From a virus: DNA of 28,946 bases. The notes beneath the pieces were generated by a model that saw nothing but the letters and a program-made list of their open reading frames with translations, did not search any database and was not told the DNA's origin. Positions 9,543-26,879 of this stretch are shown in pieces. Positions within the stretch are counted from its first letter, which is position 1, and each line of letters begins with the position of its first letter. The DNA is taken from positions 1 through 28,946 of the IMG/VR virus record IMGVR_UViG_3300009537_000128; one strand, written 5' to 3'. Made by a program: the position numbers and the translations under genes.

Positions 9543-10060
9543 GGCGCTTTCGTGAACACGCCTAACCAGTGCAGCTCGTCTAGCGCTGCGACGGACGAGA
9601 TCGCCCATGTCCGATCTAGTATGGGACCGGGCCCGCGTGGCGACATGTGCTCGGCTGGATTGGTCATGGCGATATGATCGACCACGAACAACTTACCGCC
9701 ACACGCGAGCGCGTCGACCAAGTTGCGCATAGCCGGATAGTAGTCGGTATCGCGTGTAATATGCTGTAGCACGTAGATCGCCGCGATGAAATCGAACGGA
9801 CCAGACAGTAACGCCCAGTCGTCGGATAACTCGTCGATGATGTCGAGTCCGACATACTCGTTCTGTGCTTCCATGAACGGCCTGAACCGACCCGGCCCGC
9901 AACCGTAATCGAGCACCCGACCACCTGCCGGGAGATGCGTGACCAGGTGCGGCGCGATAAGCTCTATCTGTGGCTGCACGTTCTCCGCTCGGCCGCCAGC
10001 TGCGACGTAGCGGTCGCCTTGCGCCCGGTAGCGTTCCAGCCAATACGCTCGGGGTTTCAC
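9539..10060 (-). CDS. SAM-dependent methyltransferase (173 aa)
   Basis: This is a compact class I methyltransferase. Motif I is VLDYGCGPGRFRPF (49-62). The acidic end of strand 2 is YVGLDII (69-75), and FDFIAAIYVLQHI (89-101) matches the motif-IV region. Then ALACGGKLFVVDH matches the post-motif strand. The N-terminus MKPRAYWLERYRAQGDRYVA resembles methyltransferases found in polysaccharide gene clusters. The GTG at 10060 overlaps the GT-D-like gene by four bases. The likely substrate is a sugar or glycan intermediate, given the neighbours; a protein or small molecule cannot be excluded. Confidence 0.8.
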   Translation of the reverse strand: MKPRAYWLERYRAQGDRYVAAGGRAENVQPQIELIAPHLVTHLPAGGRVLDYGCGPGRFRPFMEAQNEYVGLDIIDELSDDWALLSGPFDFIAAIYVLQHITRDTDYYPAMRNLVDALACGGKLFVVDHIAMTNPAEHMSPRGPGPILDRTWAISSVAALDELHWLGVFTKAP

Positions 10061-12160: not shown

Positions 12161-12645
12161 CGCTCTGCCTGCCAGACCTTGCACAGCTTACCGCTCCGGT
12201 TCGGTGTGTCGCCCCAGTCGCATACCATCGTGATCCGGTAACCGAGCCGCTTGAACAACGCCGTCAGATCCTCGTACAACTGCCAACTATGCGTTTCCAG
12301 TACCCACGCACGTGGCCCCCTCAGCAGCTCGTCTGGCAACGTGAGCAACACCGCCTCGCAGCCTTCGCAATCGACCTTGACGATGTCGGGCTGATAGAAC
12401 TCGAACAGATCCGGCGCGATATCGGCATCGAACGCGCCGTATGCCGCCATCGGGCGACCCTCAGCTAGCGCCCGTAACCTGTTGAATTGCTGAGGGTTAC
12501 GCTCGCATGCGGCCACAAACCGAGCGCCGCGCGCTAGGAAATATTCGGCCGTCGTGCCGTGGTCGGCGCCGATATCGAGTACCGTCGCGTCTGTATAGTC
12601 GAGCGCGCCGTACATCTTCGTGTAGTTGCCGAATTCGGTTTTCAT
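12157..12645 (-). CDS. FkbM-type methyltransferase
   Basis: This 162-aa protein has motif I ATVLDIGADHGTTAEYFLAR (20-39), the strand AACERNPQQF (46-55), and DIVKVDCEGCEAVLL (87-101). The last is the hallmark of FkbM family methyltransferases (D-x-x-K-x-D-x-E-G-x-E). WVLETHSW then follows, with a C-terminal LFKRLGYRIT helix-strand. FkbM proteins O-methylate sugars and related hydroxyls and are common in capsule and LPS clusters. It is shorter than many FkbM proteins, lacking an N-terminal extension, but the core is complete. The ATG at 12645 overlaps the HldD-like stop by four bases. Confidence 0.83.
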   Translation of the reverse strand: MKTEFGNYTKMYGALDYTDATVLDIGADHGTTAEYFLARGARFVAACERNPQQFNRLRALAEGRPMAAYGAFDADIAPDLFEFYQPDIVKVDCEGCEAVLLTLPDELLRGPRAWVLETHSWQLYEDLTALFKRLGYRITMVCDWGDTPNRSGKLCKVWQAER

Positions 12646-13490
12646 ACGATGTCAGCCATCAATTCGACGCCCTCGGCGAGCGTCAGAAAGTCACCATCGT
12701 AGCCGGCCGCACGCAATCGCGTTAGGTCGGCTTCGGTATGGTTCTGGAACCGGCGCGTCAGATGGTTCGGCATCGTCACCCATTCGACGGGCAGCCATGG
12801 CCGCACCCGCTGGACCGCGCCCAACATGCTCGCGAACGATGCCGCATGGCCGGTACCTACATTGTAGAGCCCGTGCACGTCCGCGTCGAGCGCCCAGAGA
12901 ATGACACGGACCACGTCGTCGACGTACACGAAGTCTCTGCGCTGACCGCCCCATTTGAACAGGTTCAGCGGATCGTGACGCTCGGCCGCGTAGAACGCCT
13001 GCGACACCATCGACGCCATCCGGCCCTTATGCTGTTCGCCTGGCCCGTAGACGTTGAAAAAGCGCAAACCCGCCCACGTCGGTGGCGTGGCACGTGACCA
13101 CGTCGCCAGCCGGTCGAACGTCGCCTTCGAATGCGCATACGGGTTCAGTGGATCGAGCGGCGCACATTCGTGGAACCCACGTAGCCCGCGCCCGTACACC
13201 GCGGCGGACGACGCGTAGACGAGTGGCTTACCGTGTTCGGTGCACCAGTCCCATAGCCGCTGCGGTAGATCGACGTTCGTCGCGTATAGCGCCTCGGAAT
13301 CCTCGACGGTCGTGTCGGTGATCGCGCCGAGATGCACGACAGCCGCCGGCTCGAAGCTGTCGAGCGGCAGATACGGCCAGGTGTCCGAATCACGCGGATC
13401 GACCGGGCAGACGCTATGGCCTGCCGCTTGCAACGCACGCACGACATGCGATCCGATGAACCCGGCCGAGCCAGTTACAAGGATCGTCAT
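12642..13490 (-). CDS. hldD: ADP-L-glycero-D-manno-heptose 6-epimerase-like protein (HldD-like)
   Basis: This is a 282-aa extended SDR protein. The NAD(P)-binding loop is VTGSAGFIGSH (5-15). VVHLGAITDTT and ASSAAVYG (93-100) follow, then the catalytic Y118-x-x-x-K122 in NPYAHSK. RFFNVYGPGEQHKGRMAS (143-160) contains K155 at the place of E. coli HldD Lys178. LFKWGGQRRDFVYVDDVV (177-194) and VGTGHAASF come next. The end resembles HldD strongly: ADLTRLRAAGYDGDFLTLAE, where E. coli has [20 protein letters not shown]. HldD converts ADP-D-glycero-D-manno-heptose to the L-glycero form. It is somewhat shorter than E. coli HldD (310 aa). A related epimerase on a different nucleotide sugar remains possible. 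Confidence 0.8.
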   Translation of the reverse strand: MTILVTGSAGFIGSHVVRALQAAGHSVCPVDPRDSDTWPYLPLDSFEPAAVVHLGAITDTTVEDSEALYATNVDLPQRLWDWCTEHGKPLVYASSAAVYGRGLRGFHECAPLDPLNPYAHSKATFDRLATWSRATPPTWAGLRFFNVYGPGEQHKGRMASMVSQAFYAAERHDPLNLFKWGGQRRDFVYVDDVVRVILWALDADVHGLYNVGTGHAASFASMLGAVQRVRPWLPVEWVTMPNHLTRRFQNHTEADLTRLRAAGYDGDFLTLAEGVELMADIV

Positions 13491-14197
13491 ACCATTACCA
13501 GCTCGCGCAATTCTTCGATACGCTCGGTGCGCGCTCTGTTTGTGCGGCCCTTGCTAGAGCCCCGGTTCTCGCGGCTCGCGATGGTATGCTCTATGATGCA
13601 TGGCTCATCTTTCGGGTAGCCTTTCGCTTTGTCGAACACGTAGGTATAGCGACCCGGCAAGCGTTGGACCTTCAGGTCGTCCATGCAGGTCGTCAGGAAC
13701 CATAGGTTTTTCTGACCGCCGCCGGTTGTGAGGCCAGCCGATTGTAGTACGTCGTTCATCGCTGCCCACGTGCGCACGAGCCGCTGACATGGTTCGGTGT
13801 CGTTGAGAAACAACGTACCCGATAGCATCCAATGATCGCGGGTGCATGGCTCGCCACGCAGGCACCGGCATGATCGCCGAAAATCGTGACCCTTGCGTGG
13901 ACCAGCGAAGAAATGGGCACCGAAATCGTAGCCACGCAACGCAAGCTTCTGGAAGTAGAGCGTACAGTTCTCGTGCACGAACGCGTCGACATCCAGGTAG
14001 AGCAACGGTCCGCGCATGCTCGCACGCATGTCAGCGATGAACTGGGCCTTGTACGATGTATTGCGATACCAGTCGCCGCGATCGTCGAAGCCGATGATGT
14101 AATGCGCGCGCATGCCAGCCCGGTCAAGCGACGCACGTAGGATCTGCGCTTCGCGCTCGTAGGACGTGCCGCGCGAGTAGCAGGCTATGATCTTCAT
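13487..14197 (-). CDS. GT-A-fold glycosyltransferase with cysteine cluster
   Basis: This 236-aa protein starts MKIIACYSRGTSYEREAQIL. LLYLDVDAFVHENCTLYF contains the DxD motif at residues 69-71, which in GT-A enzymes binds a metal and the nucleotide sugar. A cluster with Cys110, Cys112 and Cys118 (RRSCRCLRGEPC) sits in the acceptor half, an unusual insertion for this class that could bind zinc. HWMLSGTLFLNDTEP and a Gly-rich TTGGGQKNLWF segment follow. The final 25 residues are basic and charged (ENRGSSKGRTNRARTERIEE). The ATG at 14197 overlaps the upstream stop by four bases. Donor and acceptor are unknown. Confidence 0.75.
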   Translation of the reverse strand: MKIIACYSRGTSYEREAQILRASLDRAGMRAHYIIGFDDRGDWYRNTSYKAQFIADMRASMRGPLLYLDVDAFVHENCTLYFQKLALRGYDFGAHFFAGPRKGHDFRRSCRCLRGEPCTRDHWMLSGTLFLNDTEPCQRLVRTWAAMNDVLQSAGLTTGGGQKNLWFLTTCMDDLKVQRLPGRYTYVFDKAKGYPKDEPCIIEHTIASRENRGSSKGRTNRARTERIEELRELVMV

Positions 14198-14985
14198 ACC
14201 GCAGCGCGCATATATTGGACCACCTCATCGGCTAGGCCTAGTACCTGGTCCCAGTGCGGCCATATCACGAGCGGCGAGCGCTGGTGGTTCGCCGCGTCAT
14301 AGTATTCGCCACGCTTGACGGGCCAGTAAGCTGGCCGGAACACGTGGCCATGCTCATCCGTGACAGGCCCCGGCGCCACCAACCCGTTGCATGTGATAAG
14401 CAACAGTGGTCGTCCACACAACACCGCGAGATGCGCGAGCCCGGCGTCGGTAGCGATCACGAGCCGAGCGCGTAGCATCGCCTCGATCGACGCGTCCAGG
14501 AAGCGGCTATAGGTCCAGGCGCAGCGGCTATCGACGCGTTGGGACGAATCGGGCGCGCCGGCCGCGAAGACGCTGAAACCCTTACCACCGAGCCACTCCA
14601 CGAGCTCGTCCCAATGTGGCCAATTCTTCGATGCGCCGTACCGTCGACCGCGTGGACATACGACGATATCGACGTCGCCGACGGCTTGCCGCACGAACGG
14701 CTGCGGGACGAACCGACGTTCGGTGTCGCCTTTTTTGGGCGCGACGCACTCGCCCCATTCCGCTCGCATCGCTGCGAGAAACGTGCCGTCTGTACGGTAC
14801 GGGTCACCAGCACGTGCGTCGTCGTGACGGCGCGGTACCTCGATGTGTTCCGCAGCGCCCGGATACAGCGCTTCCATGCCAGGTTCGATAAGTACACGAT
14901 AGGGCCCGTCGAGCGCGTAGGTCGTGGGCACATGGTAGCGGATACCGAGGCCGAACTCGCCACGCCACGGTAGCACGGTCCTCAT
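14194..14985 (-). CDS. GT9-like (heptosyltransferase-type) glycosyltransferase
   Basis: This is a 263-aa GT-B-type protein. The C-terminal half has IVVCPRGRRYGASKNWPHWD (107-126), then LVEWLGGKGFSVFAAGAPD, and VIATDAGLAHLAVLCGRPLL (176-195). The pattern D-x-G-x-x-H-x-A...G.P...L is the signature of family 9 glycosyltransferases, which include the ADP-heptose:LPS heptosyltransferases. The N-terminal half is less conserved and short. With the HldD-like and GmhA-like genes in the same operon, an ADP-heptose donor is plausible, but the family also uses other donors. ATG 14985 overlaps the small sulfotransferase gene by four bases. Confidence 0.78.
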   Translation of the reverse strand: MRTVLPWRGEFGLGIRYHVPTTYALDGPYRVLIEPGMEALYPGAAEHIEVPRRHDDARAGDPYRTDGTFLAAMRAEWGECVAPKKGDTERRFVPQPFVRQAVGDVDIVVCPRGRRYGASKNWPHWDELVEWLGGKGFSVFAAGAPDSSQRVDSRCAWTYSRFLDASIEAMLRARLVIATDAGLAHLAVLCGRPLLLITCNGLVAPGPVTDEHGHVFRPAYWPVKRGEYYDAANHQRSPLVIWPHWDQVLGLADEVVQYMRAAV

Positions 14986-15416
14986 CGCTCGTAACCGTGC
15001 CGACGCATCTGGTCACCGCAGATCGCCCAAAACGTGGCCGCTTGCTCGTCGGTCCACTCGCGCCAATGCGGGAGCGCATAGCGTGGCGTCCGATCGACGG
15101 CACGTAACAGGTCCTTAAGCTGGACCGTAGGCAGCCCCTCGCACATATCGACGCCATCAGCCCAGACACGGCACGCGTCCTCGAACGTCCATTCTGGGTG
15201 CCTACCAACCGCTGATCGCACGACGTCGCGGCCGTCACGTACAAGGTGCGTCAATTCATGAGCGTCGCGTAACGCCGGCACATGGACCCTGAGCCGGCTG
15301 TCGACGACGATGTCACCGCCTAGCGTGTCGGGTTCGTGGCGTGCGTCGAAGAACCGGCCGAGCACGCCGGCCAGCCATTGGCTGCCAGACCGCCCGACAC
15401 CGGTTACGATCTTCAT
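14982..15416 (-). CDS. Minimal sulfotransferase-like protein (144 aa)
   Basis: This protein of only 144 aa keeps both cofactor sites of sulfotransferases. MKIVTGVGRSGSQWLAGVLG holds the P-loop (6-15), and ELTHLVRDGRDVVRSAVG (54-71) holds the 3'-phosphate-binding strand and helix. A charged C-terminal helix (WREWTDEQAATFWAICGDQM) ends it. Most such enzymes exceed 200 residues, so this looks like a trimmed core rather than a truncation: it starts and stops in clean ATGA-type overlaps with its neighbours. Whether it is catalytically active is uncertain. Sulfation or another phospho-transfer on a glycan is inferred. Confidence 0.65.
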   Translation of the reverse strand: MKIVTGVGRSGSQWLAGVLGRFFDARHEPDTLGGDIVVDSRLRVHVPALRDAHELTHLVRDGRDVVRSAVGRHPEWTFEDACRVWADGVDMCEGLPTVQLKDLLRAVDRTPRYALPHWREWTDEQAATFWAICGDQMRRHGYER

Positions 15417-16063
15417 GCGACCCGCTCGCGCCAGACTTGATGCGCCCAGCCAGCTGTCGGCTTATCGAGATGTGGTTTGCCGTGCCCACAGACAAGTGCA
15501 GCACCGTCCGGTGCTGGACGCTGCCCGCTACGGCAGTGCACCTTGAGACTCACGATCTTCCCAGGGTAGAGCTCCTGTAACCGGTCAGGTAGGATGTGCC
15601 GCGCGTACCAGTAATCGGAGCGACGCCCACTTGTGATCGCTTTCGCGGGATCTTCGCTCACGATCCGGTACAACCGCTCGGCCAAATGGCCGGCCCGAAA
15701 GAGGAGCACACCCGACGCTGGGATCTCGGGCTGGTAGAAGTCCGACAGCATCGCGAACCCGCCCTGATAGCTGGCGAACGGCTCGAGCGCGCCCATCACG
15801 ACGGTATCGAGGTCCAAGTAGAGCACAAGTTGCTCGTCGGTCGTGACCACGAAACGTCGGAACAGTTCCAGTTTCGCCCACCAGCCCGGCCAATCATGCG
15901 CCAACGGGACAACTTTCACGCCCGGCACATCGACGTCCATATCGGTCAGGCAGACAACCGCCTTAGCGAGCGCTGGCGAATGCTCACGTATCCCAGCCAC
16001 CAGCGCGGCCACCCACTCAGGTGTGTAGATGCCACCGGAGCGGAGCACGCACGCGATTCGCAT
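15413..16063 (-). CDS. GT-A-fold glycosyltransferase (GT8-like)
   Basis: This 216-aa protein begins MRIACVLRSGGIYTPEWVAA. DWPGWWAKLELFRRF (58-72) precedes the metal-binding DxD in LYLDLDTVVMGALEPF (81-96, DLD at 84-86). FAMLSDFYQPEIPASGVLLF matches the acceptor side, and CGHGKPH near the C-terminus could supply the metal-binding histidine seen in GT8-type enzymes. No membrane anchor is visible. The ATG at 16063 overlaps the stop of the upstream 63-aa gene (TAATG). The sugar used is unknown. Confidence 0.78.
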   Translation of the reverse strand: MRIACVLRSGGIYTPEWVAALVAGIREHSPALAKAVVCLTDMDVDVPGVKVVPLAHDWPGWWAKLELFRRFVVTTDEQLVLYLDLDTVVMGALEPFASYQGGFAMLSDFYQPEIPASGVLLFRAGHLAERLYRIVSEDPAKAITSGRRSDYWYARHILPDRLQELYPGKIVSLKVHCRSGQRPAPDGAALVCGHGKPHLDKPTAGWAHQVWRERVA

Positions 16064-16254
16064 TAGACCGAATCAGGTGGCAGGTAATCGCTTTCGTCGC
16101 TGAGTTGCGACCGACGCACGGTCTTGCCTACCGCGAACTCGCGGAACCGTGAGCGGTTGACGTACTCGGCGTCTGTGGCCTGTTTGCGCTTGCGTTGGCG
16201 ACGCTCATAGGCGCGCCGTTCTTTGGCGAGCTGCTTCGATGTCAGCGCGCGCAC
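16063..16254 (-). CDS. Small basic hypothetical protein (63 aa)
   Basis: This is a short frame from GTG 16254, preceded by GGGG 8-9 bases upstream. It is placed three bases after the stop of the KdsD-like gene and ends in a TAATG overlap with the glycosyltransferase gene, which supports it being real. The first half is a very basic helix (LTSKQLAKERRAYERRQRKR, then KQATDAEY). The second half is mixed, with a short acidic end (SDESDYLPPDSV). The basic helix could bind nucleic acid or an acidic protein. I do not recognise a family. Confidence 0.6.
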   Translation of the reverse strand: MRALTSKQLAKERRAYERRQRKRKQATDAEYVNRSRFREFAVGKTVRRSQLSDESDYLPPDSV

Positions 16255-16256
16255 GG

Positions 16257-16817
16257 CTATAACCCCAACACGCCAGCAGGATGTACGGCCCTGAACCCGT
16301 CCGTTGTGACTTCCATACGGCCCGCGACAGCGACAGCCAACGCGTCGCCCATCGCTAACGCTACGGCGGTCGAACATGTAGGCGCGAGCCCGAGCGGGCA
16401 TGCCTCGCGTTCGACCGAACAATCGAGCACGACATCACAATAGCGGGCGACCGCCGAGCCGGGCGTGGTGAGCCCGAGCATACGTGAGCAGGGCCCATGA
16501 TGGCTGAGTTGGCCGGCGAGCACGATCATTTCCAGGCATTGCCCGGACCGTGAGATCAGCACAACACCATCACGTTCGTCGATAGCGCCCAGGTCGCCGT
16601 GCATCGCGTTCACGGGATCAAGGAAATACGCTTGCTTGCCGTAGGACGCGAGATGGCCGGCGATCTTGCGAGCGATGCAGCCGGACTTGCCGATACCAGC
16701 GACGTGCACGCGCTGCGATGCGTCGAGAAAGTCGACCGCGTCGGCGAACGTGCGTTCGTCGAGCATGTCGGCTGCGCGCCTGATCGCGTCGGCTTCAGCG
16801 TACAACACGTCCTTCAC
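16257..16817 (-). CDS. kdsD: Arabinose-5-phosphate isomerase, SIS domain only (KdsD/KpsF-like)
   Basis: This 186-aa protein matches the SIS half of KdsD/KpsF. The phosphosugar loop is VAGIGKSGCIARKIAGHLAS (39-58), and MHGDLGAID (72-80) and ISRSGQCLEM (88-97, usually SNSGE) follow. The signature is EACPLGLAPTCSTAVALAMG (138-157) with GDALAVA, and it ends in HPAGVLG (179-185). KdsD converts ribulose 5-phosphate to arabinose 5-phosphate, the precursor of Kdo. The tandem CBS domains of the usual full-length enzyme (about 328 aa) are absent, as in the known SIS-only forms. The GTG at 16817 overlaps the 69-aa gene. It is near the start of the carbohydrate island. Confidence 0.83.
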   Translation of the reverse strand: MKDVLYAEADAIRRAADMLDERTFADAVDFLDASQRVHVAGIGKSGCIARKIAGHLASYGKQAYFLDPVNAMHGDLGAIDERDGVVLISRSGQCLEMIVLAGQLSHHGPCSRMLGLTTPGSAVARYCDVVLDCSVEREACPLGLAPTCSTAVALAMGDALAVAVAGRMEVTTDGFRAVHPAGVLGL

Positions 16818-17033: not shown

Positions 17034-18143
17034 CTAGTTGCGGAGCGCGTCGAGCGAGACGCTGCGCATGTCGCGAGTGATAAGGTCTTTCAGTGTGATC
17101 TCGCCGCGACGGAACAAGTCGGCACGACCTTTGCCGACCATATGATTCTGAACAGCCGGTCGCTGCCGGCGGAACCATTCCGAGGCGACCTGACCGGACG
17201 GGACGCGCGTGACCTTACCGAGCGAGCCCGACCGACGACGTGCGCTGATGCGACGCTCGAGGTCGGCGTCGCTCACGGTCGATAGGTCGCGGGCCATCCG
17301 GTCCGGTATAGGCGGTTCTGGTAGCCCGAGTCGTTGCCAAGCGATGATCGGCGTGAGCACCGAGCGACAACCGTAGTGTGTGTCCCTACCGGGCACGACG
17401 ATTGCGGGATCGTCCAAGTCCCATTCCTCACCGTCCAGTGACAAGCAGATATCGGTCGTACGATCGTCGAGCGTGGCGAGATAGCGCACACCATCCAGTA
17501 TATCAGCGTTCGCGTGAAACGTGTCAAGTTGCCCGCGATTCGAGGCATAGCCGACCGCTGTCCGTACGAGCGCCTGCGCGTCGCGCGTCGTCGTTTGCAT
17601 CACGCCACCCCGGTAACCGTTACCGGCTTTGGTACCACGTATGCGGCGCACGATGTCGTCGATCGACTCCTCGCGGACCATGCCGAGCCGGACTTGTACA
17701 CTGACGCGGTCGACGATGTTGGTGCCGAGCCGTTTGCCGTGATCGGCGAGCACCCGACCCTGGAACGGTTCGGTGTTCAGGATAGCGCGCATCCTGGACT
17801 CCGTGATCGGCGTGTAGCGCACGTCCAGCGCGTCGTCGACCGTACCGAGCGTCGCGACGAGCGTGTCATAGGCTCGCAACCCTTCCAGTCTGCCGAGCGT
17901 GGCCAGGCGGTCTTTGATGTTGCTTGTAAAACGTGGTAGCCAGTTACGTATCCGCAACCGTAGCCGCGCCATGAACTGATCCCTACGCCCTAGGCGATAG
18001 CGTCTGGTCACGATCGTCGGGTCACGAGCACGGAGATCGGCCTCTATCCGGCTGAACAGCGACGATACCAGCACACGCACGTCGAGATCGAGCGCGTTCC
18101 CGTACTGTTGCAGGAAGAGCAGCCGCTCAATCAGCGCTTGCAC
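17034..18143 (-). CDS. Minor head protein (SPP1 gp7 / MuF-like)
   Basis: This 369-aa protein carries the SPP1 gp7 (phage Mu protein F) domain. Residues 221-240 read YLATLDDRTTDICLSLDGEE, followed by PGRDTHYGCRSVLTPIIAW (251-269). This is the family's conserved Cys-containing stretch, with Cys233 and Cys259. It continues with a C-terminal VPSGQVASEWFRRQRPAVQN and LFRRGEITLKDLI, which match its usual end. Gp7-type proteins bind the portal and are packaged in the head, often entering with the DNA. The GTG at 18143 has a GGAG seven bases upstream and overlaps the preceding gene by 17 bases. Usually this gene follows the portal directly; here about 7 kb of fibre-type genes separate them. Confidence 0.85.
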   Translation of the reverse strand: MQALIERLLFLQQYGNALDLDVRVLVSSLFSRIEADLRARDPTIVTRRYRLGRRDQFMARLRLRIRNWLPRFTSNIKDRLATLGRLEGLRAYDTLVATLGTVDDALDVRYTPITESRMRAILNTEPFQGRVLADHGKRLGTNIVDRVSVQVRLGMVREESIDDIVRRIRGTKAGNGYRGGVMQTTTRDAQALVRTAVGYASNRGQLDTFHANADILDGVRYLATLDDRTTDICLSLDGEEWDLDDPAIVVPGRDTHYGCRSVLTPIIAWQRLGLPEPPIPDRMARDLSTVSDADLERRISARRRSGSLGKVTRVPSGQVASEWFRRQRPAVQNHMVGKGRADLFRRGEITLKDLITRDMRSVSLDALRN

Positions 18144-18744
18144 CGAACACTCCTAGCATCAGCAAGAACATTTCCTCGTCGCTCGGGTTTTGGACGCCAC
18201 GCGCGAGCGCACGATTGACATGCAACCGGAATCTAAGTGGATCGGTCCTAGCGAGTGCAGCGGCTTCCTGGCCGCTAAGTCCGAGCGTCCATGCCAGATC
18301 ATGCGCCAGCGCCTCGACGTGCGCGCCACCAGCTGCTTGGGCACGTTCGAGCGCGAGCGCCACCCTGATCTCGCGTGCCGCCGCTCTGCCGGTCGCGACC
18401 ACACGCACGGGTCCGACATCGAAGCCGAGCGCGAGCGCCGCAGGTTCGGCAAGCGCGCCGCGGATAGGTGACGGCGTCGGCTGCCAGACGAGCCCGTCGA
18501 GCGCGGGCACGATGACAGCTGCCGGGGGGACGACGCCACCAGTTGCGTGCGCCCGACCGACAGCGAGCCGTAGCACCAGCCCGTGCGGCGTTGCAACCGC
18601 ACCGACGATCTGTTTGCGGACGCTGTAGTCGGGCTCGAAATAGGCCGCGCCACCGCCTGTCGGTTGCGGCGTCGGTTCGGCTGTTTCTACGCCACCCATC
18701 CAGCCAGCATCCCAACCCACCATCCAGCCGGCCCCCCAACTCAT
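18127..18744 (-). CDS. Hypothetical protein with Gly/Trp-rich N-terminus
   Basis: This 205-aa protein starts MSWGAGWMVGWDAGWMGG, a run of W-G and G-W steps. A short Thr/Pro-rich stretch follows (AEPTPQPTGGGAAYFEPDYS). The next region is strand-rich (VRKQIVGAVATPHGLVLRLA), and a long Ala-rich helical region fills residues about 90-170. The last third (RTDPLRFRLHVNRALARGVQ and SDEEMFLLMLGVFG) is helical. The coding DNA of the first 18 codons contains a near-repeat of CCATCCAGCC, so the Trp repeats may have arisen by slippage. No known domain is recognised. Position after the fibre gene and before the MuF gene suggests a virion protein. Confidence 0.6.
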   Translation of the reverse strand: MSWGAGWMVGWDAGWMGGVETAEPTPQPTGGGAAYFEPDYSVRKQIVGAVATPHGLVLRLAVGRAHATGGVVPPAAVIVPALDGLVWQPTPSPIRGALAEPAALALGFDVGPVRVVATGRAAAREIRVALALERAQAAGGAHVEALAHDLAWTLGLSGQEAAALARTDPLRFRLHVNRALARGVQNPSDEEMFLLMLGVFGASAD

Positions 18745-20306
18745 GGGTCAAGATCGACTAACGTCACAGTGCGGTTGCCTTGTGCGTCGACCGTACCGGT
18801 CACGCGCACACGGTCGGGATCGACAGGCGAGCGATACGAATATGTGTCGCCTGAGCGGACCAGGTTACCGGCCCACACGGACGCGAACACACGCAACGCT
18901 TCCGATAGATCGAAGCCATCGCTAACGGACTTGGCGAACGTGGCGTCAGCGATCTGCTCCGCGTTCGTGATCTCGTTTACGACATCGACCGTGCCGTTCC
19001 ATGTGCCGGTCGATATGGCAACACCGTTCTCGTCGACCAGCTTGCCGACACCTCTAACTATGATCGTGCCCGTGCCCGCGAATGTCGCCGAGTCCAGGAT
19101 GACCTGACCCGAATTCAGGTCGACGCTCACCGCGTCCGAGCCGTTCTTGTTCGTGAGCTTGATGCCGCCGTTGTAGTTCCGCAGGGCCAGCGCCTGGCCT
19201 GACCCGCCCATGTCGATTGTTGGCGTGCCCGCGCCCGGTACGCCGCTCCAGCAGTCGAGGAAATGGGCTTCTTCGCTGCCCCCGAGCGTGATTGTCCCCT
19301 CTAATACGCATTGTTCGACGAAGCCGTTGATGAAGTTGAGTGTCTGGATGACGCAGTCCAGCAGTTTCGCTTCACCGTCGAGTGTGCCCGTGACGGTAGC
19401 GTCAACGAATTCGCTGCGGGTCACGTTCGCCGCGGCGTCAACCGTGAGCACGCTCTTGGTTTTCGACTCGCCGATGAACACCATGCCGGTGAAATCGAGG
19501 CCGGTGTCGATTGTCGCGTCGCCGACTATGAAGAGCGTACCGAAACCACGTGCGTTCGCGATGGTGATTGCGTCAGTGAAATTGTCCACCGGCTGACGTG
19601 GCGTGCCCGTAGGATAAGTCGTGCCAGCGGTTCCGTTCACGAGATCGACCGTCACGCCACCGTTGAAGGAAGCGTACTGGAGGTCCGCCAACTCCGCGAG
19701 GGTCGCAGACGACGAAGCCGTCCTAACGACCTGCGCCATCGCGGACGGCAAGATCGCAGCGAGCGGGTCGCCGTTCTCGTCTACCGCCGTGAGGTTACCA
19801 CCGCTGACAGAGCATTGCTCGTTGTTGTACGTCCACACCTCGTCGCCGACCTGCCAGTCGTTGCGACTGCCGCCCGTCAATACCAAGTGCGTGAGCTGTT
19901 CCTCGCCGTCCACGACCAAGATCGTCGCCAACGCGCCCGTCGTGGCGTTGAACACCATATCTCCGCGCACCAGCCCATCGGCTTCGAACGTGCTGCCGAC
20001 GCTGTACAGCACCATCCCGGTCGGGTCGCCGGTCGTACATGTTTGCGTGTTGTCGAGCGGCGTCGAGCGCGACGGGAAATAGACCTGCGCGTTGTTGAGC
20101 TCGGCCGTCAAGCCGACAGTCACGCTACCACCTAGTGGCTGCTTGCCGTCAGTCGATATCAGGTGGTCCCATTGCTGGTTGTCTGTCTCGTCTTCCCATG
20201 CCCGACAAGCATCGTGTAGGTCCTGGATGGTCACTTCCGTCTGCGGATAATCCACCTCGATGATGCGTGGACTATACAGCGGATGCACCGTGATGTTGAC
20301 GGCCAC
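18741..20306 (-). CDS. Fibre-like structural protein (521 aa)
   Basis: This protein is beta-rich and Gly/Thr-rich. The N-terminal 60 residues (VTIQDLHDACRAWEDETDNQ, 25-44) are similar in pattern to the 846-aa protein's start. Residues 112-161 form the shared beta module LVRGDMVFNATTGALATILV...NDWQVGDEVWTYN. A segment YPTGTPRQPVDNFTDAITIA and strands with FNGGVTVDLVNGTAG lead into a probable beta-helix up to about residue 440. The C-terminal domain (LSEALRVFASVWAGNLVRSG, then VRVTGTVDAQGNRTVTLVDL) closes it. Such proteins usually form head or tail fibres. Its GTG start has GGAG seven bases upstream. A receptor-binding or decoration role is an inference. Confidence 0.75.
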   Translation of the reverse strand: MAVNITVHPLYSPRIIEVDYPQTEVTIQDLHDACRAWEDETDNQQWDHLISTDGKQPLGGSVTVGLTAELNNAQVYFPSRSTPLDNTQTCTTGDPTGMVLYSVGSTFEADGLVRGDMVFNATTGALATILVVDGEEQLTHLVLTGGSRNDWQVGDEVWTYNNEQCSVSGGNLTAVDENGDPLAAILPSAMAQVVRTASSSATLAELADLQYASFNGGVTVDLVNGTAGTTYPTGTPRQPVDNFTDAITIANARGFGTLFIVGDATIDTGLDFTGMVFIGESKTKSVLTVDAAANVTRSEFVDATVTGTLDGEAKLLDCVIQTLNFINGFVEQCVLEGTITLGGSEEAHFLDCWSGVPGAGTPTIDMGGSGQALALRNYNGGIKLTNKNGSDAVSVDLNSGQVILDSATFAGTGTIIVRGVGKLVDENGVAISTGTWNGTVDVVNEITNAEQIADATFAKSVSDGFDLSEALRVFASVWAGNLVRSGDTYSYRSPVDPDRVRVTGTVDAQGNRTVTLVDLDP

Positions 20307-20310
20307 CGGG

Positions 20311-20496
20311 TCACTCCGTGACTATGTGGATCCTGCTGGCCGCAGCCTCGAGCGCATCGTTCTTCTCCCTGAGATGCTCGATCATCACCTTATACTCTTC
20401 GATCTTCGCGCGCTCCTCGTTAGCCGCTTTCTCGAACAGCGTGATGTTCTGGTGACACTTCTCGATCTCGCGGCTCAAGCCGTCAGTAGTGAACAC
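20311..20496 (-). CDS. Small coiled-coil protein (61 aa)
   Basis: This 61-aa protein is almost entirely helical and charged (REIEKCHQNITLFEKAANEE, then RAKIEEYKVMIEHLREKNDA), with heptad spacing, so it likely forms a coiled coil. The GTG at 20496 follows an AAGG element. It lies between two fibre-like genes. Similar small helical proteins are common in phage structural operons, but a role is not known. It could help fibre trimers fold or act as a chaperone, which is only a suggestion. Confidence 0.62.
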   Translation of the reverse strand: MFTTDGLSREIEKCHQNITLFEKAANEERAKIEEYKVMIEHLREKNDALEAAASRIHIVTE

Positions 20497-20510
20497 CCTA
20501 TGCCTTGGGT

Positions 20511-23051
20511 TTAGGTAATGATCCCGTCTTCCGTCCTCGTGACCTGAACCGAAGCGTTCGCGCTGGTCGTGTTACCGGTAGTGCTAAACGGCTTGATCTT
20601 GGTCGTGGTGTTGCGGGTGTTACGGACGGTGACGCGATAGAAAATCTGCGTCGTCGGATCAATAAAGCTCGTCGCTTCGCTGGCGCTTTCCGCGATCTTG
20701 TGGATGTATGGCACGTAGACATCATCGCCCGTATCCAGGTTCGCCGGCACGCAATTGATCTCGATGGTGTCGGTATCGGTCTGGCCTGGGATGCCAGCAC
20801 CTTGCAGCGTCAGTTGCGTGTCTGAATCGACGGTGGCGACGTAGCCGACCGCGCCAACGCTGGAATTGTAAACCAAATCACCTCGCTTGACCGCCGCATT
20901 GAAGCCGCCAGTCGCGTAGGTGACTTGCGTTGCGGTCGTGGTCGCGGTTGCGGTAAACGCCGCGAAGTTAGCGAGCGTGAACGTCGTGCCGGTCCAGCTC
21001 GTGTAACGGATCGGATACTCGATCGCCGTCGCAGAGCCAGGGTTCTGAACGATTACGACAGTCCCGGCGTCTGGCACATATTCAATCGTGCTCGCCACGT
21101 CGAAGGTCGCGTCACCGGCAGACGGGGTGCCAGCGACCCCACTGAACATGTCCTTGTCGATACCACCGCCTGAGCCGGTCAGTTGGAACCACGAGACCTT
21201 ATCGTCCTCGTCCGACGTGAGCGCGGACGAACCCTGGAGGTTGGTGACGGTGAACGTCAGAGAGGTCGGCCGTGTGTAGGTACCGCCGTTGACAGACGTC
21301 AACGTAAACGCGTTTGTGTCGTCCGCATGATAGTCGATGACGAGGACGCCACGCGCGCCGAAGAAATTGCCACCCGAGAACGTACCGAACGGTGACGCGG
21401 TCTTGGCGGCGAAATTCGATGCCGTCACGCCCGTGAACGTCGAGGAATCGTCGTCGGCGTCGATCGTCGTGTTGTTGAACGTGCCGCGCGCCGACCGCAG
21501 CAGTACGACCATATTGGTGGAGTCGTGTGACAGGACCACACCCGTCGCGCCGGTCGCGGGCTGCGTGACAGACTCGCCCTCGACGATGTTGGCGGGAGTC
21601 GTACCGCCCGTGTAGGTGAAGCTAGCGGTAGCGCCGTTGTACTCTTCACCGTTGACGCCAGTCTCGGCGGTCTCGACTACACCGCCCGCGCCCTGGCCAT
21701 AGCCGACGATATACTGCGCCCACTGGATGACTTCACTGAGTCGGTTCTGGTTGCAGTCGATGACGATACCGTAGTATTCGTCGGTCGTGTCGTTGTCGAT
21801 ATCGGCCGTCGTCGCGGTGAACGACAACGTGGGTTCGCCCGAGCCGCTGAACCACGCGGCATCCGCGGGCCCGTCGTCGGCTGGCGAGCCGTCTGTGGTA
21901 ACACTCGCGTTCGACGTATCGCCTTGGACCGTGTTGCCAGAGCCCATCGCGGTGATCGTACCACCGACCGCGTCGTCCGCGATCGGGAAATAGACGAGCT
22001 CGCCGCCACTCGTGACAGTCGAGTTGCCAAGATCGAGGCGACCCCTTCCGCCTGTCGTCTGGTCCACGATGATCTCGCCGTCCGTAAACGGTCCACCAGA
22101 CACCGCACCCGAAAACGATATTTTCTGGGTGCCATGCTCTTGCGCCGAATCGACCTCGGTCTGAAGCGGCACCGGATTACGACCACCGGACGTCGTGGAA
22201 TTCGCGACCTCGAACGAGGCACGTAGGTCGCCGCCCTTACGTGCGTAGACTCGGAGATAACCGTCGTCCACCGTCGCCCATGTCGCCGCCGTAATGTCCC
22301 TGAGCGCTGCGCACACGTCGATGTGGCCGTTACCCCACCAATCGACCGTGTTGTCGTTCCACGAATACAGACGGTCGCGTGAGTCGGTCGTCAGCGCCGT
22401 GCCCTGATAGATGTACATGTGCACGTCGTCTTCGACCGTGCCGATGGTATAGATGTTCGCCCACACCATCTCGCCGGTCGTGGCGACACCGTCCGTTTCC
22501 AGCACGTCGGCCGTGTGGCCGTTACAGGTCAATGTGTCGGACGTGGCAGCGTCGAACGAGTCGCCGCTCGCGTTGCTGTCTGGCCGGATAATGCAGTAGT
22601 CGACCGCGCCACCCGTGTCGATGAATTCGAGCAACGTGCCCGCGTCACCATCCGAGTGCGTGATGTCGAGCCCTTCGTCGGCCTTGACGATCGTGCCGCC
22701 AGAATCGACCTGCACGCAGATGATGCCGGTATTCGTGCCCTCGACGCGCGCCCAGCCGGTCGTATACAGCGAGCCGCCCTGGAGGTGTTCCAGCAACTCG
22801 AACGTCGTGTACCACGGATCCGGGTCGCCCTGATCGATCTTACCGATCTTGTACTCGGTCGGCGTATCCGCGAAAAACGCGGTGCCATCATCGATCGTGT
22901 CCGTCTCGTCCTGCAACGTCTGCATGGCCGAGTACAACTGGTTCATCGTGTAGAAGTTGTTCGTTCCACCGATCCACTCTAACCGCTTTTGTCGATTGTT
23001 GTCGAACCAGGTGACCCCAACGTCGCCATTGAGGATGGTCGTGTCAGCCAT
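20511..23051 (-). CDS. Large fibre-like structural protein (846 aa)
   Basis: This is the longest gene in the window and is beta-rich throughout. The N-terminal LEWIGGTNNFYTMNQLYSAM and QTLQDETDTIDDG resemble the start of the 521-aa protein. The middle carries several modules of the form D/E-G-x-x-x...T-x-G-x-x-G, such as DGEIIVDQTTGGRGRLDLGN, and EGESVTQPATGATGVVLS. Residues 723-765 hold the shared module RGDLVYNSSVGAVGYVATVD...TDTIEI. A segment GVLVIDYHADDTNAFTLTSV and a C-terminal IFYRVTVRNTRNTTTKIKPF are beta strands. The start follows AGGACATC. It probably forms a trimeric fibre or a large decoration protein; the receptor or ligand is unknown. Confidence 0.72.
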   Translation of the reverse strand: MADTTILNGDVGVTWFDNNRQKRLEWIGGTNNFYTMNQLYSAMQTLQDETDTIDDGTAFFADTPTEYKIGKIDQGDPDPWYTTFELLEHLQGGSLYTTGWARVEGTNTGIICVQVDSGGTIVKADEGLDITHSDGDAGTLLEFIDTGGAVDYCIIRPDSNASGDSFDAATSDTLTCNGHTADVLETDGVATTGEMVWANIYTIGTVEDDVHMYIYQGTALTTDSRDRLYSWNDNTVDWWGNGHIDVCAALRDITAATWATVDDGYLRVYARKGGDLRASFEVANSTTSGGRNPVPLQTEVDSAQEHGTQKISFSGAVSGGPFTDGEIIVDQTTGGRGRLDLGNSTVTSGGELVYFPIADDAVGGTITAMGSGNTVQGDTSNASVTTDGSPADDGPADAAWFSGSGEPTLSFTATTADIDNDTTDEYYGIVIDCNQNRLSEVIQWAQYIVGYGQGAGGVVETAETGVNGEEYNGATASFTYTGGTTPANIVEGESVTQPATGATGVVLSHDSTNMVVLLRSARGTFNNTTIDADDDSSTFTGVTASNFAAKTASPFGTFSGGNFFGARGVLVIDYHADDTNAFTLTSVNGGTYTRPTSLTFTVTNLQGSSALTSDEDDKVSWFQLTGSGGGIDKDMFSGVAGTPSAGDATFDVASTIEYVPDAGTVVIVQNPGSATAIEYPIRYTSWTGTTFTLANFAAFTATATTTATQVTYATGGFNAAVKRGDLVYNSSVGAVGYVATVDSDTQLTLQGAGIPGQTDTDTIEINCVPANLDTGDDVYVPYIHKIAESASEATSFIDPTTQIFYRVTVRNTRNTTTKIKPFSTTGNTTSANASVQVTRTEDGIIT

Positions 23052-23065
23052 GATGTCCTAGTCCC

Positions 23066-24856
23066 TTATGAGGTAGCGTTGTTGTTGGGGTCCTGTGCTA
23101 GCGTCACGATCAGCGTGAGGCCGGAAGAGCCAATCTCCTGCACGGAAGAATAATTCCTGTATCGCGTGTCGCCACTACTCGCTTTGCGGACCCACACCTT
23201 CGCGTCGGCTGGCGTCGAGCCAGTGAATGAGCCTGTTATCTCACCGCTACCGTTCGTGTCGCCGTTGATGATCTCGGAATCGTCCGACACCAGGAACACG
23301 CCGGTATGTGCGGTCGCGATCGGATCGCCAGCAACGTCTTTGACGGTAATCGTGAGCGGGACCGAGCCGATAAACTCGACGTTGCCGGTCGCGGTCGATG
23401 GGTTCGACGTCCCGCTTTTCGAGACGAACAGCCCGTCGGAGCCGGTCGCGGTGTTGTTTACATGTGTGCCAGCGCCCGTGAACGTCAGGTCAGTGTACGT
23501 CTGGGCCGGCGAGATCGAGTACGCGTCGCCGTTCGCCCAGTCGTTCGCGGTCCCGCCTTGCAGCGCTTCATGTGTCAGCGTGTTCGCGTCGTCGATAGAC
23601 ACGATCTTAGCGTAGCAAGCGTCGGCCTCGTTGTAGATGTACTCACCTACGTTGACGGCGCCGCCCGTGAACGTCGCGCCCGCATCGAAAAGCACCGTCG
23701 TGCTGCTGCCCGGATCGTCGGCTGTGCCAGTGTAGACGCTCTCGATTGTATCGTGCTCGATGCCGTGGCCACCGCTCGCGACATCGAACGCCGAGTCCTG
23801 AACGTCAGACTGGCCATTGACCCACAGGTAGGAGCCCGCGGTATCAGATGAGTTACGGAACACGCAGTCGCGGAGGACCGCGCCCGTATCGGTGACCTGT
23901 GCACAAGCCGTGAACACGCAGCCCGTGTAGTCGTTGCCCGACCCGCCGAGCGCCATCACGGTGCCGTTGAAGCCCCGGAACCGCGAGTTGACGGCGGCGA
24001 TGTCGGTCGCGGATGCTAGGTCGAGCCGCTTGTCGGCGTGCGTGCCGGTGATGTCTGCGTTGTTCGCGCAGATCGCGGCCAGCCGCGTAAACGTGATCGT
24101 GTCGGAATCGGCAGACGACATACCTTGAAGTGTCAGGGCCGAGTCGATGTTGGCGCTCGCGTCGACATAGACCGGCTCCTCGAACACGATGATCTCGTCG
24201 GTACTCGCGTGGTCGGACGCGTCAGGCGACAGAATGAGCGCCGCTTTCGAGAACACGACGCCCGCGCGACGCGTGGCCACCCCGTACAGCGACGTCTCGT
24301 CCCAGGTCGCTAACTCCGACACGAGGTTCGTCGTGTTACCGGCGAGCGTGAGCCCGGTGTTCGGCATCGTCAGGACTTCGTCCACATAGACGTTCGGGTC
24401 ACCACCCGACGAGGCGGCAGCGTTAAGGTAGATGCCGACATACCGGACGGCCGACAGGCTGGCGGCGGTACCACCGGTCGTGGACGGTGCGTTGGCCGTG
24501 TCGATTACGGCCTCGAACCAGCCGCCTTTGTAAGTATCGGAGCCCGCGACGTACCACCTGCTCGTGTTGCCTGAGGTGTCCTGGACGCGGATGCCGGCAC
24601 CGCCCGCAGCCATCGTATCGCCGAGCCCACCGTTCACGAGGAAGCGCACGAGGATGATCGAGTTCTCGACCGACTCACCGCTCGCGTTGATCTCGAAGCC
24701 CATGCCCTTGTAGCCGGTAAACTTCCGACCGCGCGATGATGCGCCCGACAGGAACGTGGCCGTCGTGGAGGCTGACCCCGGACCAGACACCCAATCGAGC
24801 CACGTGCCGCTACCCTCTTGGGTGTGGACATCTAGGCCAGATACGCTGATCGCCAT
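23066..24856 (-). CDS. Fibre-like structural protein with beta-helix and Ig-like end (596 aa)
   Basis: Residues 1-165 look like a jelly-roll domain (GKGMGFEINASGES-like strands, then VRYVGIYLNAAASSGGDPNV). Residues about 240-375 have the short repeating strands of a right-handed beta-helix (ITFTRLAAICANNADITGTH, then DYTGCVFTACAQVTDTGAVL). Residues 401-449 hold the module VNVGEYIYNEADACYAKIVS...NDWANGDAYSIS shared with the other two fibre-like proteins. Residues 493-588 form a carboxypeptidase-regulatory or Ig-like beta-sandwich (VPLTITVKDVAGDPIATAHT). These are common parts of phage fibres and spikes. ATG 24856 has a GGAGGAGG-type element about 11 bases upstream. Enzymatic depolymerase activity is possible for the helix but no active site was recognised. 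Confidence 0.73.
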   Translation of the reverse strand: MAISVSGLDVHTQEGSGTWLDWVSGPGSASTTATFLSGASSRGRKFTGYKGMGFEINASGESVENSIILVRFLVNGGLGDTMAAGGAGIRVQDTSGNTSRWYVAGSDTYKGGWFEAVIDTANAPSTTGGTAASLSAVRYVGIYLNAAASSGGDPNVYVDEVLTMPNTGLTLAGNTTNLVSELATWDETSLYGVATRRAGVVFSKAALILSPDASDHASTDEIIVFEEPVYVDASANIDSALTLQGMSSADSDTITFTRLAAICANNADITGTHADKRLDLASATDIAAVNSRFRGFNGTVMALGGSGNDYTGCVFTACAQVTDTGAVLRDCVFRNSSDTAGSYLWVNGQSDVQDSAFDVASGGHGIEHDTIESVYTGTADDPGSSTTVLFDAGATFTGGAVNVGEYIYNEADACYAKIVSIDDANTLTHEALQGGTANDWANGDAYSISPAQTYTDLTFTGAGTHVNNTATGSDGLFVSKSGTSNPSTATGNVEFIGSVPLTITVKDVAGDPIATAHTGVFLVSDDSEIINGDTNGSGEITGSFTGSTPADAKVWVRKASSGDTRYRNYSSVQEIGSSGLTLIVTLAQDPNNNATS

Positions 24857-24861: not shown

Positions 24862-25290
24862 TCAGGCCCCCTCCTCCTCTTGTTCTAGCCGGGCCGTGAT
24901 GAGCCGCTCCGGCAACGAGACGGTGAACGGGCCATTGGTGCTTGTGACTGTCTCGCCGAAATCGAGGATAGCGAGCGCTGGCTGGCCGGCGACCGATGCA
25001 TTGTAGATCATCGCACCGCGTGCGCTGATCGTTGCGGTCGGCCACGTCGGGTTGCCGAACGCCACGAACGCGTTGCCGTCGTCCATGAGTTCGGCCACAC
25101 GATCTGTTAGCGCCTGGCCGCCAGCATCGTAACCGAGCCCGCCGACCTCGCCATCGGCTGTATAGCCGGGTGTGCCTTCACCGAGCGCGGCGTCAGGCCC
25201 ATAGAGCGCGAGCCGATACTCGTGTGTAGGCTGGTGTACGCCGTTGAAGAAATCGAGCCGCGCCTGGGCGGGTACGGTATGCCGGATCAT
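24862..25290 (-). CDS. Probable virion protein (142 aa)
   Basis: This 142-aa protein lies between the portal and fibre genes; its ATG at 25290 overlaps the portal stop by four bases. The central ATISARGAMIYNASVAGQPA, followed by ALAILDFGETVTSTNGPFTV, is a pattern I recognise from small proteins beside DUF4055-type portals and fibre genes in uncultured phages, whose function is not settled. The N-terminus (QARLDFFNGVHQPTHEYRLA) and the end (SLPERLITARLEQEEEGA) suggest a small beta-rich domain with a charged tail. It may be a fibre adaptor or a minor decoration protein. Confidence 0.7.
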   Translation of the reverse strand: MIRHTVPAQARLDFFNGVHQPTHEYRLALYGPDAALGEGTPGYTADGEVGGLGYDAGGQALTDRVAELMDDGNAFVAFGNPTWPTATISARGAMIYNASVAGQPALAILDFGETVTSTNGPFTVSLPERLITARLEQEEEGA

Positions 25291-26879
25291 CCGGTACGTG
25301 CTCCGATCATGGAGCCGTTCTCGTCGCGCTCGATCACGAAGCGTTGCGTCGGCTCGCGATCCATCATGCGCTCGGTCTCGGCGAGCCTGTCGGCGACCTC
25401 GGCGGCGATGCGGTCACGCTCTTCGGTCGGCTCGAAATCTTCCGGCAACACCTCGCCCTCGATCAATAGCGACCATAGCGTTTCTAGGCTGAGCTGGTCG
25501 GACGCGACCATCTCCAACAGATGCTTGAGCAGCGCCGGGTCGATGAGTTGCGCGTGGAAATCGCGGTTGATCGTGATGGTGCCAGGCTTAGGCGCTGCGC
25601 TGCTATAGGACGCCATGACTTCGAGCGCTTCGTTAGCGGCCGCTTCGAGCGCGTTAGCGAACAACACAAGCGACGCGTCGGACTCGGACTTGCGCATGAT
25701 GTCCGATGTCGCGGTCGTGCGGCTATTATCAGATACACCGGGCCCGCCACGACGCACAAGCATCTGTAGGCCGAGCGCTGCCATGCGCGCTTCGATCTCG
25801 TTGAGCTCTTCCTTCGTCGCCGTCAGGCCGTTACCGTCCGCTTCCATGAACCCGGCTTTCGCGTCCGGGTCGTTGAGCCCGAGCATGTTGTCTGGGCCCC
25901 AACGCACTTGCACGTTGCCGTCGTGATCGACCACGCCCTCACCGAACAGGTACGGCACGGCGATGGACGAGAACGTCATCGACATCTGCCGCTCGGAACG
26001 CACACGATAGTGTTCGACCTGCTCGTAGGCGAGGTCACGTAGCGGTGGATCCGTCTCGAACGACGTGCTCGGCTCGGCCGGCACGAACACGACCGGCACA
26101 CGCGAGGCGGCGATAGGATAATCCTCGATCTTGACCCAGCGCTTACCGTCATCGCCGTCATCGAACTGCCAGAGCTCGCCACGTACCGTGCCAGGTGAGA
26201 TCTCACGTAGCACCCGGATACGACGTAACGTTCGTTGACCGAACAGCCCATCGGGTTCTGTGCCGCCTTCGTGGTACACGAACAACGTGAGCATCGGCTG
26301 GCCGTCACGTAACGACACACGCCAATTGATCGCTTGCGCTTTGTTCACGTGGACCCAGTACGGGCGCACGTTTTTGCGTTTCGCTTCGGCTTTCGTGCGT
26401 GCTTCGCCGCTTTTCGGGGCCTCGATATGGACCCACGTATGTCCATCACGGAGCGCTGACTCGGCGACATGCCGCCAGAAGACAGCCAGATCGTGCCCGC
26501 GCTGGTCGATGTTGTCCGTCGCCTCAGCGATCGCGGTGTCCATGTCATCTGACAGCACGGGGCTGCGCCTGAAGATCATGCCGGTCAGGCCGCGGATCGT
26601 GCGACCGAGCGCGTTGAACGCGACAGCGATGCCTAGCCGTTTGTCGTAACGGATCTCTTGCTCCATCGGATGCTTCGGCAAGAACGTTTCTTTTTCGAGC
26701 CGCATCGTCTTGGTGCCACCCGCTACGGCAACCATTAGATCGACGTCATCACGTTGCCGTAGATAGCTCGGGCATTCATATGCCGGCGAGTCAACGTCTT
26801 TCTGGTCCGCCGCGCCATAGATCACGCGATTCTCTTGCCGTCTAGCCGCGTCTTTGATGCCCGCCGAATATTCTGCCAT
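25287..26879 (-). CDS. Portal protein (DUF4055 type)
   Basis: This 530-aa protein has the DUF4055 portal pattern. YDKRLGIAVAFNALGRTIRG (78-97) is followed by LTGMIFRRSPVL (98-109), then DNIDQRGHDLAVFWRHVAES and a TWVHIEAP strand. The middle region (FVPAEPSTSFETDPPLRDLA, then YEQVEHYRVRSERQMSMTFS) and WGPDNMLGLNDPDAKAGFME also fit. The portal ring is the entry gate for DNA and the head vertex to which the tail is joined. The ATG directly follows the large terminase stop (TAAATG), with no gap. The C-terminus ends in a charged region (ERDRIAAEVADRLAETERMM). The size agrees with the family. Confidence 0.87.
   Translation of the reverse strand: MAEYSAGIKDAARRQENRVIYGAADQKDVDSPAYECPSYLRQRDDVDLMVAVAGGTKTMRLEKETFLPKHPMEQEIRYDKRLGIAVAFNALGRTIRGLTGMIFRRSPVLSDDMDTAIAEATDNIDQRGHDLAVFWRHVAESALRDGHTWVHIEAPKSGEARTKAEAKRKNVRPYWVHVNKAQAINWRVSLRDGQPMLTLFVYHEGGTEPDGLFGQRTLRRIRVLREISPGTVRGELWQFDDGDDGKRWVKIEDYPIAASRVPVVFVPAEPSTSFETDPPLRDLAYEQVEHYRVRSERQMSMTFSSIAVPYLFGEGVVDHDGNVQVRWGPDNMLGLNDPDAKAGFMEADGNGLTATKEELNEIEARMAALGLQMLVRRGGPGVSDNSRTTATSDIMRKSESDASLVLFANALEAAANEALEVMASYSSAAPKPGTITINRDFHAQLIDPALLKHLLEMVASDQLSLETLWSLLIEGEVLPEDFEPTEERDRIAAEVADRLAETERMMDREPTQRFVIERDENGSMIGARTG

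Follow-up and report, generated by a model that had tools for sequence, protein, structure and literature searches.

We found that a block of genes at positions 18741-24856 of the virus record IMGVR_UViG_3300009537_000128 (28,946 bases, termed here the window, with its likely genes all on the minus strand) probably constitutes a head-appendage module of the Syn5 horn type. The marine cyanophage Syn5, a Synechococcus phage, has been described as carrying a structure resembling a horn at the capsid vertex opposite to its tail (PMC10575957). The three long proteins of the block, of 596, 846 and 521 amino acids (p596, p846 and p521), are almost certainly, if distantly, homologous to proteins of this phage: on the basis of profile comparisons, p846 is the counterpart of Syn5 gp53, p596 of gp54 and the N-terminal domain of p521 of gp55. 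A location of the products on the head is likely, as carried over from one phage. The three open reading frames (ORFs) lie on the minus strand between the portal and the minor head gene, as stated in a sequence-only reading of the window. This reading had also taken their location as a sign of head fibres; the head fibres themselves are supported by the homology to Syn5 genes 53-55, but gene position is not the support. The features of the block are listed below.

23066-24856, minus strand: p596, 596 amino acids, counterpart of Syn5 gp54, with an N-terminal p596-family region, an inserted module and a gp54-like C-terminal region (hhalign)
23072-23422, minus strand: gp54-like C-terminal region of p596, residues 479-595 (hhalign, gp54 profile aligned)
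23492-23746, minus strand: shared module in p596, residues ~371-455 (BLASTP, profile comparison)
20511-23051, minus strand: p846, 846 amino acids, counterpart of Syn5 gp53, predicted as a series of beta domains in which the module is close to the C-terminus (hidden Markov model (HMM), hhalign, AlphaFold2)
21690-22949, minus strand: gp53-like region of p846, residues ~35-454 (profile comparison with Syn5 gp53)
20742-20984, minus strand: shared module in p846, residues ~690-770, predicted small beta-barrel (VIA-align of the model)
20311-20496, minus strand: p61, small coiled-coil-like protein of 61 amino acids between p846 and p521 (profile matches, position)
18741-20306, minus strand: p521, 521 amino acids, with a gp55-like N-terminal domain, the module, a predicted right-handed beta-helix and a small C-terminal domain (AlphaFold2, VIA)
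20082-20306, minus strand: gp55-like N-terminal domain of p521, residues 1-75 (hhalign)
19812-20051, minus strand: shared module in p521, residues ~86-165 (BLASTP, profiles)
18966-19676, minus strand: beta-helix of p521, residues ~211-447 (predicted structure, VIA)

Homology to Syn5 genes 53-55

In a related locus (L012), the 526-amino-acid protein at the place of p846 is a full-length match to Syn5 gp53 (32%, E 5e-57), and it also matches a second Syn5 record, S-TIP28, Panino, MW202577 and Rctr197k. In Syn5, gp54 and gp55 adjoin gp53. The p846 HMM matches Syn5 gp53 in three colinear segments (E 6.8e-13, 29 sequences searched), the N-terminal part of the L012 p521 matches gp55 (E 4e-11) and p596 reaches gp54 via Rctr197k_179 in a profile search, the E-values of such comparisons by profile referring to 29 to 67 sequences.

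Starting from single Syn5 sequences, hhalign gave probabilities of 95.5 for gp53-p846, 62 for gp54-p596 (residues 448-595) and 74 for gp55-p521, with all off-diagonal pairs at or below 1.7. The gp54-p596 value is 79 when four other phage-record sequences are added and 99.6 with Rctr197k_179 as the first row (off-diagonal at most 1.1), the two profiles being compared without L086_548 in common. For gp55-p521, the value is 87 with three phage-record sequences and 96.2 domain against domain; off-diagonal values in the larger sequence sets go up to 2.8. As controls, the Syn5 tail fibre gp46, gp58, gp52 and S-TIP28_50 do not exceed 1.0 against the three families, and reversed alignments do not exceed 0.3.

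Furthermore, a gp53 profile found 293 relatives in IMG/VR, of which 80 were kept, leaving 71 non-redundant loci with Syn5 included. The order is gp53-gp54-gp55 in 30 of these, gp54-gp53-gp55 in 19 and a split variant in 4 (all three gene types in 53/71), and 18 loci are incomplete. This swap of gp53 and gp54 is the same as that of p846 and p596 described below. A gp54/p596-type gene is found in 64/71 loci, and the genes are on one strand in 71/71, single-gene loci being counted trivially. Because 8 of the 71 loci combine gp53 with p596- or p521-type genes (for example L207 and L240, with gp53, p596 and p521), the gp53 set and the p521/p846 set are joined. The p846 HMM matches 14 gp53-sized ORFs of these loci (E<=1e-4). 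There is also weak evidence that gp53 and gp55 are related to each other in their N-terminal domains (hhalign probability 60).

The block recurs as a unit

Loci were collected with p521 alone (9 loci), with a p521 profile (70 loci) and with p846 (the best 80 of 171 relatives, in 77 loci), and 128 of the 159 loci, including the window, remain after removal of near-identical sequence. Types were assigned by best E-value, as the iterated p596, p846 and p521 profiles cross-match (p596/p846 on 106 ORFs, p521/p596 on 74, p521/p846 on 70). Since p521 or p846 served as bait for the loci, the co-occurrence counts are not independent samples: the p846 and p521 types are together in 94/128 loci and all three types in 80/128, in the order p596-p846-p521 in 60 and p846-p596-p521 in 20. 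No further ORF intervenes in 50 of these 80 loci, and the labelled genes are on one strand in all 128 (single-gene loci again counted trivially). The block also recurs with a coiled-coil gene between p846 and p521, and the p61 profile matches 46 ORFs in the fetched loci. Collectively, the block travels as a unit through many unrelated phage contigs.

Three loci are on contigs of metagenome-assembled genomes. The p596-p846-p61-p521 block, with 56% identity to p521, is also present on one such contig assigned to Candidatus Altiarchaeales (L168, QMZJ01000091.1, 5,383 bases), which is either an archaeal virus or a misbinned contig.

A movable module shared by the three proteins

The sequence-only reading had described a beta module of about 45 residues common to the three proteins. 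The module is real by BLASTP, shuffling and profile comparison, but its length is ~75-85 residues. The alignment proposed there, once run, is significant pairwise for p596/p521 (residues 371-455 versus 86-165, BLASTP E 2.1e-9, 0/2000 shuffles reaching the score) and for p846/p521 (p846 residues 690-770, E 1.2e-4, 0/2000 shuffles). The pair p596/p846 is not convincing (12/2000 shuffles reach the score), would not be accepted alone, and is joined only through profiles, with hhalign probabilities between family profiles of 97.6 for p596-p521, 97.0 for p596-p846 and 82 for p846-p521. The motif NDW..GD is present in two of the three modules as described, those of p596 and p521, the p846 module being without it.

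The module is predicted to be a small beta-barrel. In the p846 model, residues 692-766 align with the RcGTA chain 6tba_7A (VIA-align Z 8.4), residues 632-785 with the tail tube of phage Mystique (9n71_A, Z 9.0) and residues 694-767 with SelB (4acb_A, Z 6.1), so the predicted fold resembles parts of tail-tip, tail-tube and tailspike chains as well as elongation factors.

Within the aligned families, the module is found in 48/52 rows for p846, 18/34 for p521 and 3/44 for p596. A module profile run against the 2,401 ORFs of the 128 loci found 68 domains in p846-type proteins, 42 in p521-type, 10 in p596-type and 3 in other ORFs, and all three protein types carry it in just 4 of the 75 loci having a module match, window included. 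Because it is optional in p521 (16/34 aligned relatives lack it) and rare in p596 (41/44 lack it), the module is best seen as an insert that can move, and it does not explain why the three genes form a set.

Predicted structures and family searches

In the AlphaFold2 model of p521 (predicted local distance difference test score, pLDDT, 85.1; predicted template modelling score, pTM, 0.52), an N-terminal domain of beta-strands and helix is followed by the module and then by a beta-helix, and the protein ends in a small C-terminal part. Residues 198-447 best match chain 9rkv_N, identified as 7-7-1_000102, the long tail fibre of Agrobacterium phage 7-7-1 (VIA Z 13.5, root-mean-square deviation 4.1, 217 residues aligned), with the next match at Z 12.7. 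By sequence, no 9rkv chain was matched by p521 (E<=10) or by the p521 profile (E<=1). The helix also resembles many lyases and tailspikes, and Z >= 8 was reached in 183 of the 999 chains ranked highest by Foldseek. As beta-helices are this common, the fold says little on the place of the protein.

The p846 model (pLDDT 86.5, pTM 0.72) shows beta domains arranged in a chain; it has no match over the whole length, and a Foldseek search against the PDB found no credible match. PDB sequence searches with the three family profiles likewise found no credible match. None of the three proteins matches a PHROG family at E<=0.1 (best phrog_28135 at 0.19 and phrog_9237 at 0.26). In Pfam, p596 has no family at E<=1, and the only match among the three is PF22639 (Gp18_dom_I) on part of p521, at E 0.0021, below its cut-off. 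Syn5 gp52-55 and gp58 likewise fall into no PHROG family at 0.01. A tblastn search with p596, p846 and p521 in 50,697 phage records (E<=0.01) gave a single match, between p596 and Rctr197k (E 2e-3), and the same type of search with the p521 of locus L088 gave none.

Comparison with known appendages

Raytcheva et al. in 2014 reportedly identified gp53 and gp54 as Syn5 horn proteins by immunogold, and antibodies to them are said not to block infection. What the window shares with Syn5 is a full set of three counterparts, encoded in one operon beside the same partners and occurring in the same variants of gene order; the window genes are also adjacent and co-oriented. The two phages also differ. 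In the window phage, connector genes are present together with a Phage_tube_2 tail tube, so a long tail is expected, unlike a T7-like podovirus; p846 is almost twice the length of gp53; the gp55-like domain is fused to a beta-helix; the module and the coiled-coil gene are extra; and the Syn5 genes lie between terS and terL whereas the window block lies between the portal and the minor head gene.

Related arrangements are found elsewhere. In virus Rctr197k (a metagenome record), genes 178-180 encode gp53-like, p596-like and gp55-like proteins side by side, and Rctr197k_179 links p596 and gp54; it differs in that the gp55-like protein is a separate 133-amino-acid protein without the helix, in a 197-kb partial genome. 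Maribacter phage Panino carries the gp53-55 set. Among the titles listed by our searches of the open-licence PMC literature, we recognised none that describes horn genes in a phage other than Syn5; as evidence of absence this is weak.

More generally, the role proposed here, extra contacts by the head, would be that of head fibres such as those of phi29, the phiCbK filament and T4 Hoc. The fibre on the phi29 head is built as an alpha-helical coiled coil (PMC7602432).

Genomic position and alternative explanations

Ten window-derived profiles (terL, portal, minor head, major capsid protein, scaffold, Ad1, Hc1, Neck1, tail terminator and tail tube) recognise a head, packaging, connector or tail-tube neighbour of the block in 30/128 loci, window included. 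We also scanned neighbouring proteins of 210-900 amino acids against PHROG, retaining the top 25 families on each side (upstream, 88 proteins from 59 loci; downstream, at least 110 proteins from 66 loci). Upstream, head or packaging accounts for 12 families (terL, portal, protease, capsid), tail or tail-fibre for 10 and other functions for 3; downstream, among the proteins listed, 13 are head or packaging and none is tail. In individual loci, a major head protein is directly ahead of the block (L059), the order is terL-portal-block (L008), or the block is placed as protease/major capsid protein-decoration-block-Hc1-tail terminator-tape measure (L011). Since a tail sheath gene follows in L016, block carriers include phages with contractile tails.

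Gene position alone proves nothing on fibre location and does not decide in favour of head fibres: in phage 7-7-1, the gene for the long tail fibre sits between terS and terL, and yet the protein is attached to the baseplate, as seen by cryo-electron microscopy (PMC12796354). This phage is the model for the first alternative, namely that the products are receptor-binding tail or baseplate fibres whose genes merely lie in the packaging and head region. The 7-7-1 fibre resembles p521 in its beta-helix fold and in a gene among packaging genes, and differs from it in having no sequence match, other neighbours and a baseplate location. The module fold, which matches tail-tip, tail-tube and tailspike chains, is also in line with a tail fibre, as is the fact that relatives of p142, the first gene past the portal, directly precede annotated tail-fibre or tail-repeat genes in three of the five phage records inspected. 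The N-terminal domain of p521 and its partner genes are however the Syn5 set, while the Syn5 tail fibre gp46 matches none of the three families, and the beta-helix is too common a fold to indicate a place. The ten tail-type upstream families are all matched by one collagen-like protein (L064:3820-4887), located between a phrog_213 portal and the block; because this single protein accounts for all ten, these families do not alter the weighing of the explanations. Overall, we consider tail or baseplate fibres unlikely.

A second alternative is that the proteins form neck or collar fibres attached at the portal or connector, which would account for the portal, minor head and connector neighbours. 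In many of the 30 loci, the nearest recognised neighbour is indeed the portal, minor head, Ad1, Hc1 or tail terminator gene. On the other hand, the block is directly before terL in L159, L150, L148, L146, L167 and L137 with no connector recognised beside it, and the family and PDB sequence searches yielded no known neck or collar appendage, which makes this explanation improbable. Finally, a tail-fibre module rearranged into the head operon of this one phage, which the sequence-only reading had offered and which would fit the difference in position from siphophages with related portals such as M6, in which one small ORF separates the portal from the head morphogenesis gene, is very improbable, as it is contradicted by the recurrence of the block as a unit in dozens of unrelated contigs: the same place is seen in L024 (terL, phrog_145 portal, block, minor head by a local profile) and L127 (phrog_113 portal, block, phrog_3517 head morphogenesis), and elsewhere the block is beside terL, portal, capsid or connector genes.

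Several points weigh against a head appendage of the Syn5 horn type. The reading depends on the reported identity of gp53 and gp54 as the horn proteins. Without Rctr197k_179, the gp54-p596 match covers a C-terminal region and no more; of the ORFs of the gp53 loci, just 14 are within reach of the p846 profile, and p846 has no usable match in BFVD (template modelling score about 0.1). The best fold match of the p521 helix is a baseplate fibre, the panel of ten neighbour profiles is blind to baseplate genes, and the ten tail-type families upstream, of 2-3 of the 88 proteins each, are among the 25 commonest. In L016, the gene after p521 best matches the 'tail fiber protein' family phrog_772, with a head-tail adaptor family second. 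In the passages of its description considered here, Panino has a ~60 nm capsid and a short tail, and no horn is mentioned (PMC11590407). Lastly, Syn5 gp55 and gp58 were once assigned to capsid-surface densities by size and secondary structure only, and according to a reanalysis none of the gp55 models fits these densities, leaving the place of gp55 disputed (PMC9207676). Because gp55 is linked with gp53 and gp54 in 53/71 loci, we infer that gp55 as a part of the horn would fit better.

Neighbouring genes

The gene order in the window is terS, terL, DUF4055 portal, p142, p596, p846, p61, p521, p205 and Mu F-like minor head protein, followed by a run of ORFs and then scaffold, major capsid protein, Ad1, Hc1, Neck1, tail terminator and Phage_tube_2 tail tube. 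The genes flanking the block are the following.

25287-26879, minus strand: portal protein (DUF4055; phrog_145 E 7e-96, DUF4055 match)
24862-25290, minus strand: p142, phrog_644 protein of 142 amino acids, first gene past the portal (phrog_644 E 3.4e-10, residues 5-130 of 142)
18127-18744, minus strand: p205, 205 amino acids, Gly/Trp-rich N-terminus, last ORF ahead of the minor head gene (ORF call)
17034-18143, minus strand: minor head / head morphogenesis protein, Mu F-like (phrog_241 E 5e-66, Phage_Mu_F)

The window minor head protein, used as a query in IMG/VR, gave no match, and p205 matches no PHROG or Pfam family at E<=0.1. Of 76 records matched by phrog_644 relatives of p142, five were inspected (L017-L021): the tail-fibre- or tail-repeat-annotated gene follows directly in CRP-902, MW202675 and MJing1, and the next gene is hypothetical in HTVC027P and DSL-LC04. 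Perhaps p142 is a fibre partner protein. The 125-amino-acid gene at the place of p142 in L024 was considered as a relative of p142, and no relation was detected.

In the ORF run at 6976-16817, between the minor head and scaffold genes, 7 of 10 tested ORFs match sugar-isomerase (SIS), transferase or epimerase families, namely SIS (two), GT9, epimerase, FkbM methyltransferase, sulfotransferase and methyltransferase; five further ORFs, some in two tests, matched no family. Relatives of two ORFs of this run adjoin the block in L015. The products of the run might decorate the appendage.

In 17 loci, the closest gene upstream of the block encodes a member of a family of 117-164-amino-acid proteins (for example L031:5275-5709, L107:5675-6136 and L141:7387-7818). 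The family resembles a small SPOUT methyltransferase, with Pfam SpoU_methylase matching one of four tested, below its cut-off. Downstream of the block are two groups of ~95-125-amino-acid proteins (12 and 4 members; for example L023:12704-13012 and L163:14130-14459), which may resemble BppU N-terminal domains.

Proposed function and implications

Under the hypothesis of a Syn5-type head appendage, p846 and p596 would form the shaft, as gp53 and gp54 presumably do in Syn5, and the gp55-like domain would dock p521 to it. As a consequence, the beta-helix would be displayed from the head, where it would most likely touch host or environmental glycans. The modules may lengthen or space the arms, and p61 may aid the assembly of p846 and p521.

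We also propose, tentatively, a wider possibility: the Syn5 horn may be one version of a head-appendage module that is widespread and movable, passing between phages with short, long flexible and contractile tails, in which gp55 would be a docking part and not a capsid lattice protein, and the p521 lineage of gp55 would carry a beta-helix as the glycan-binding or glycan-cutting arm of the head.

Taken together, proteins without a PHROG or Pfam family gain a probable identity, and a structure known from one phage would become a widespread and testable class. The result is also relevant to the dispute over where gp55 sits in Syn5, and it illustrates that gene position can be misleading for deciding where a phage fibre sits.

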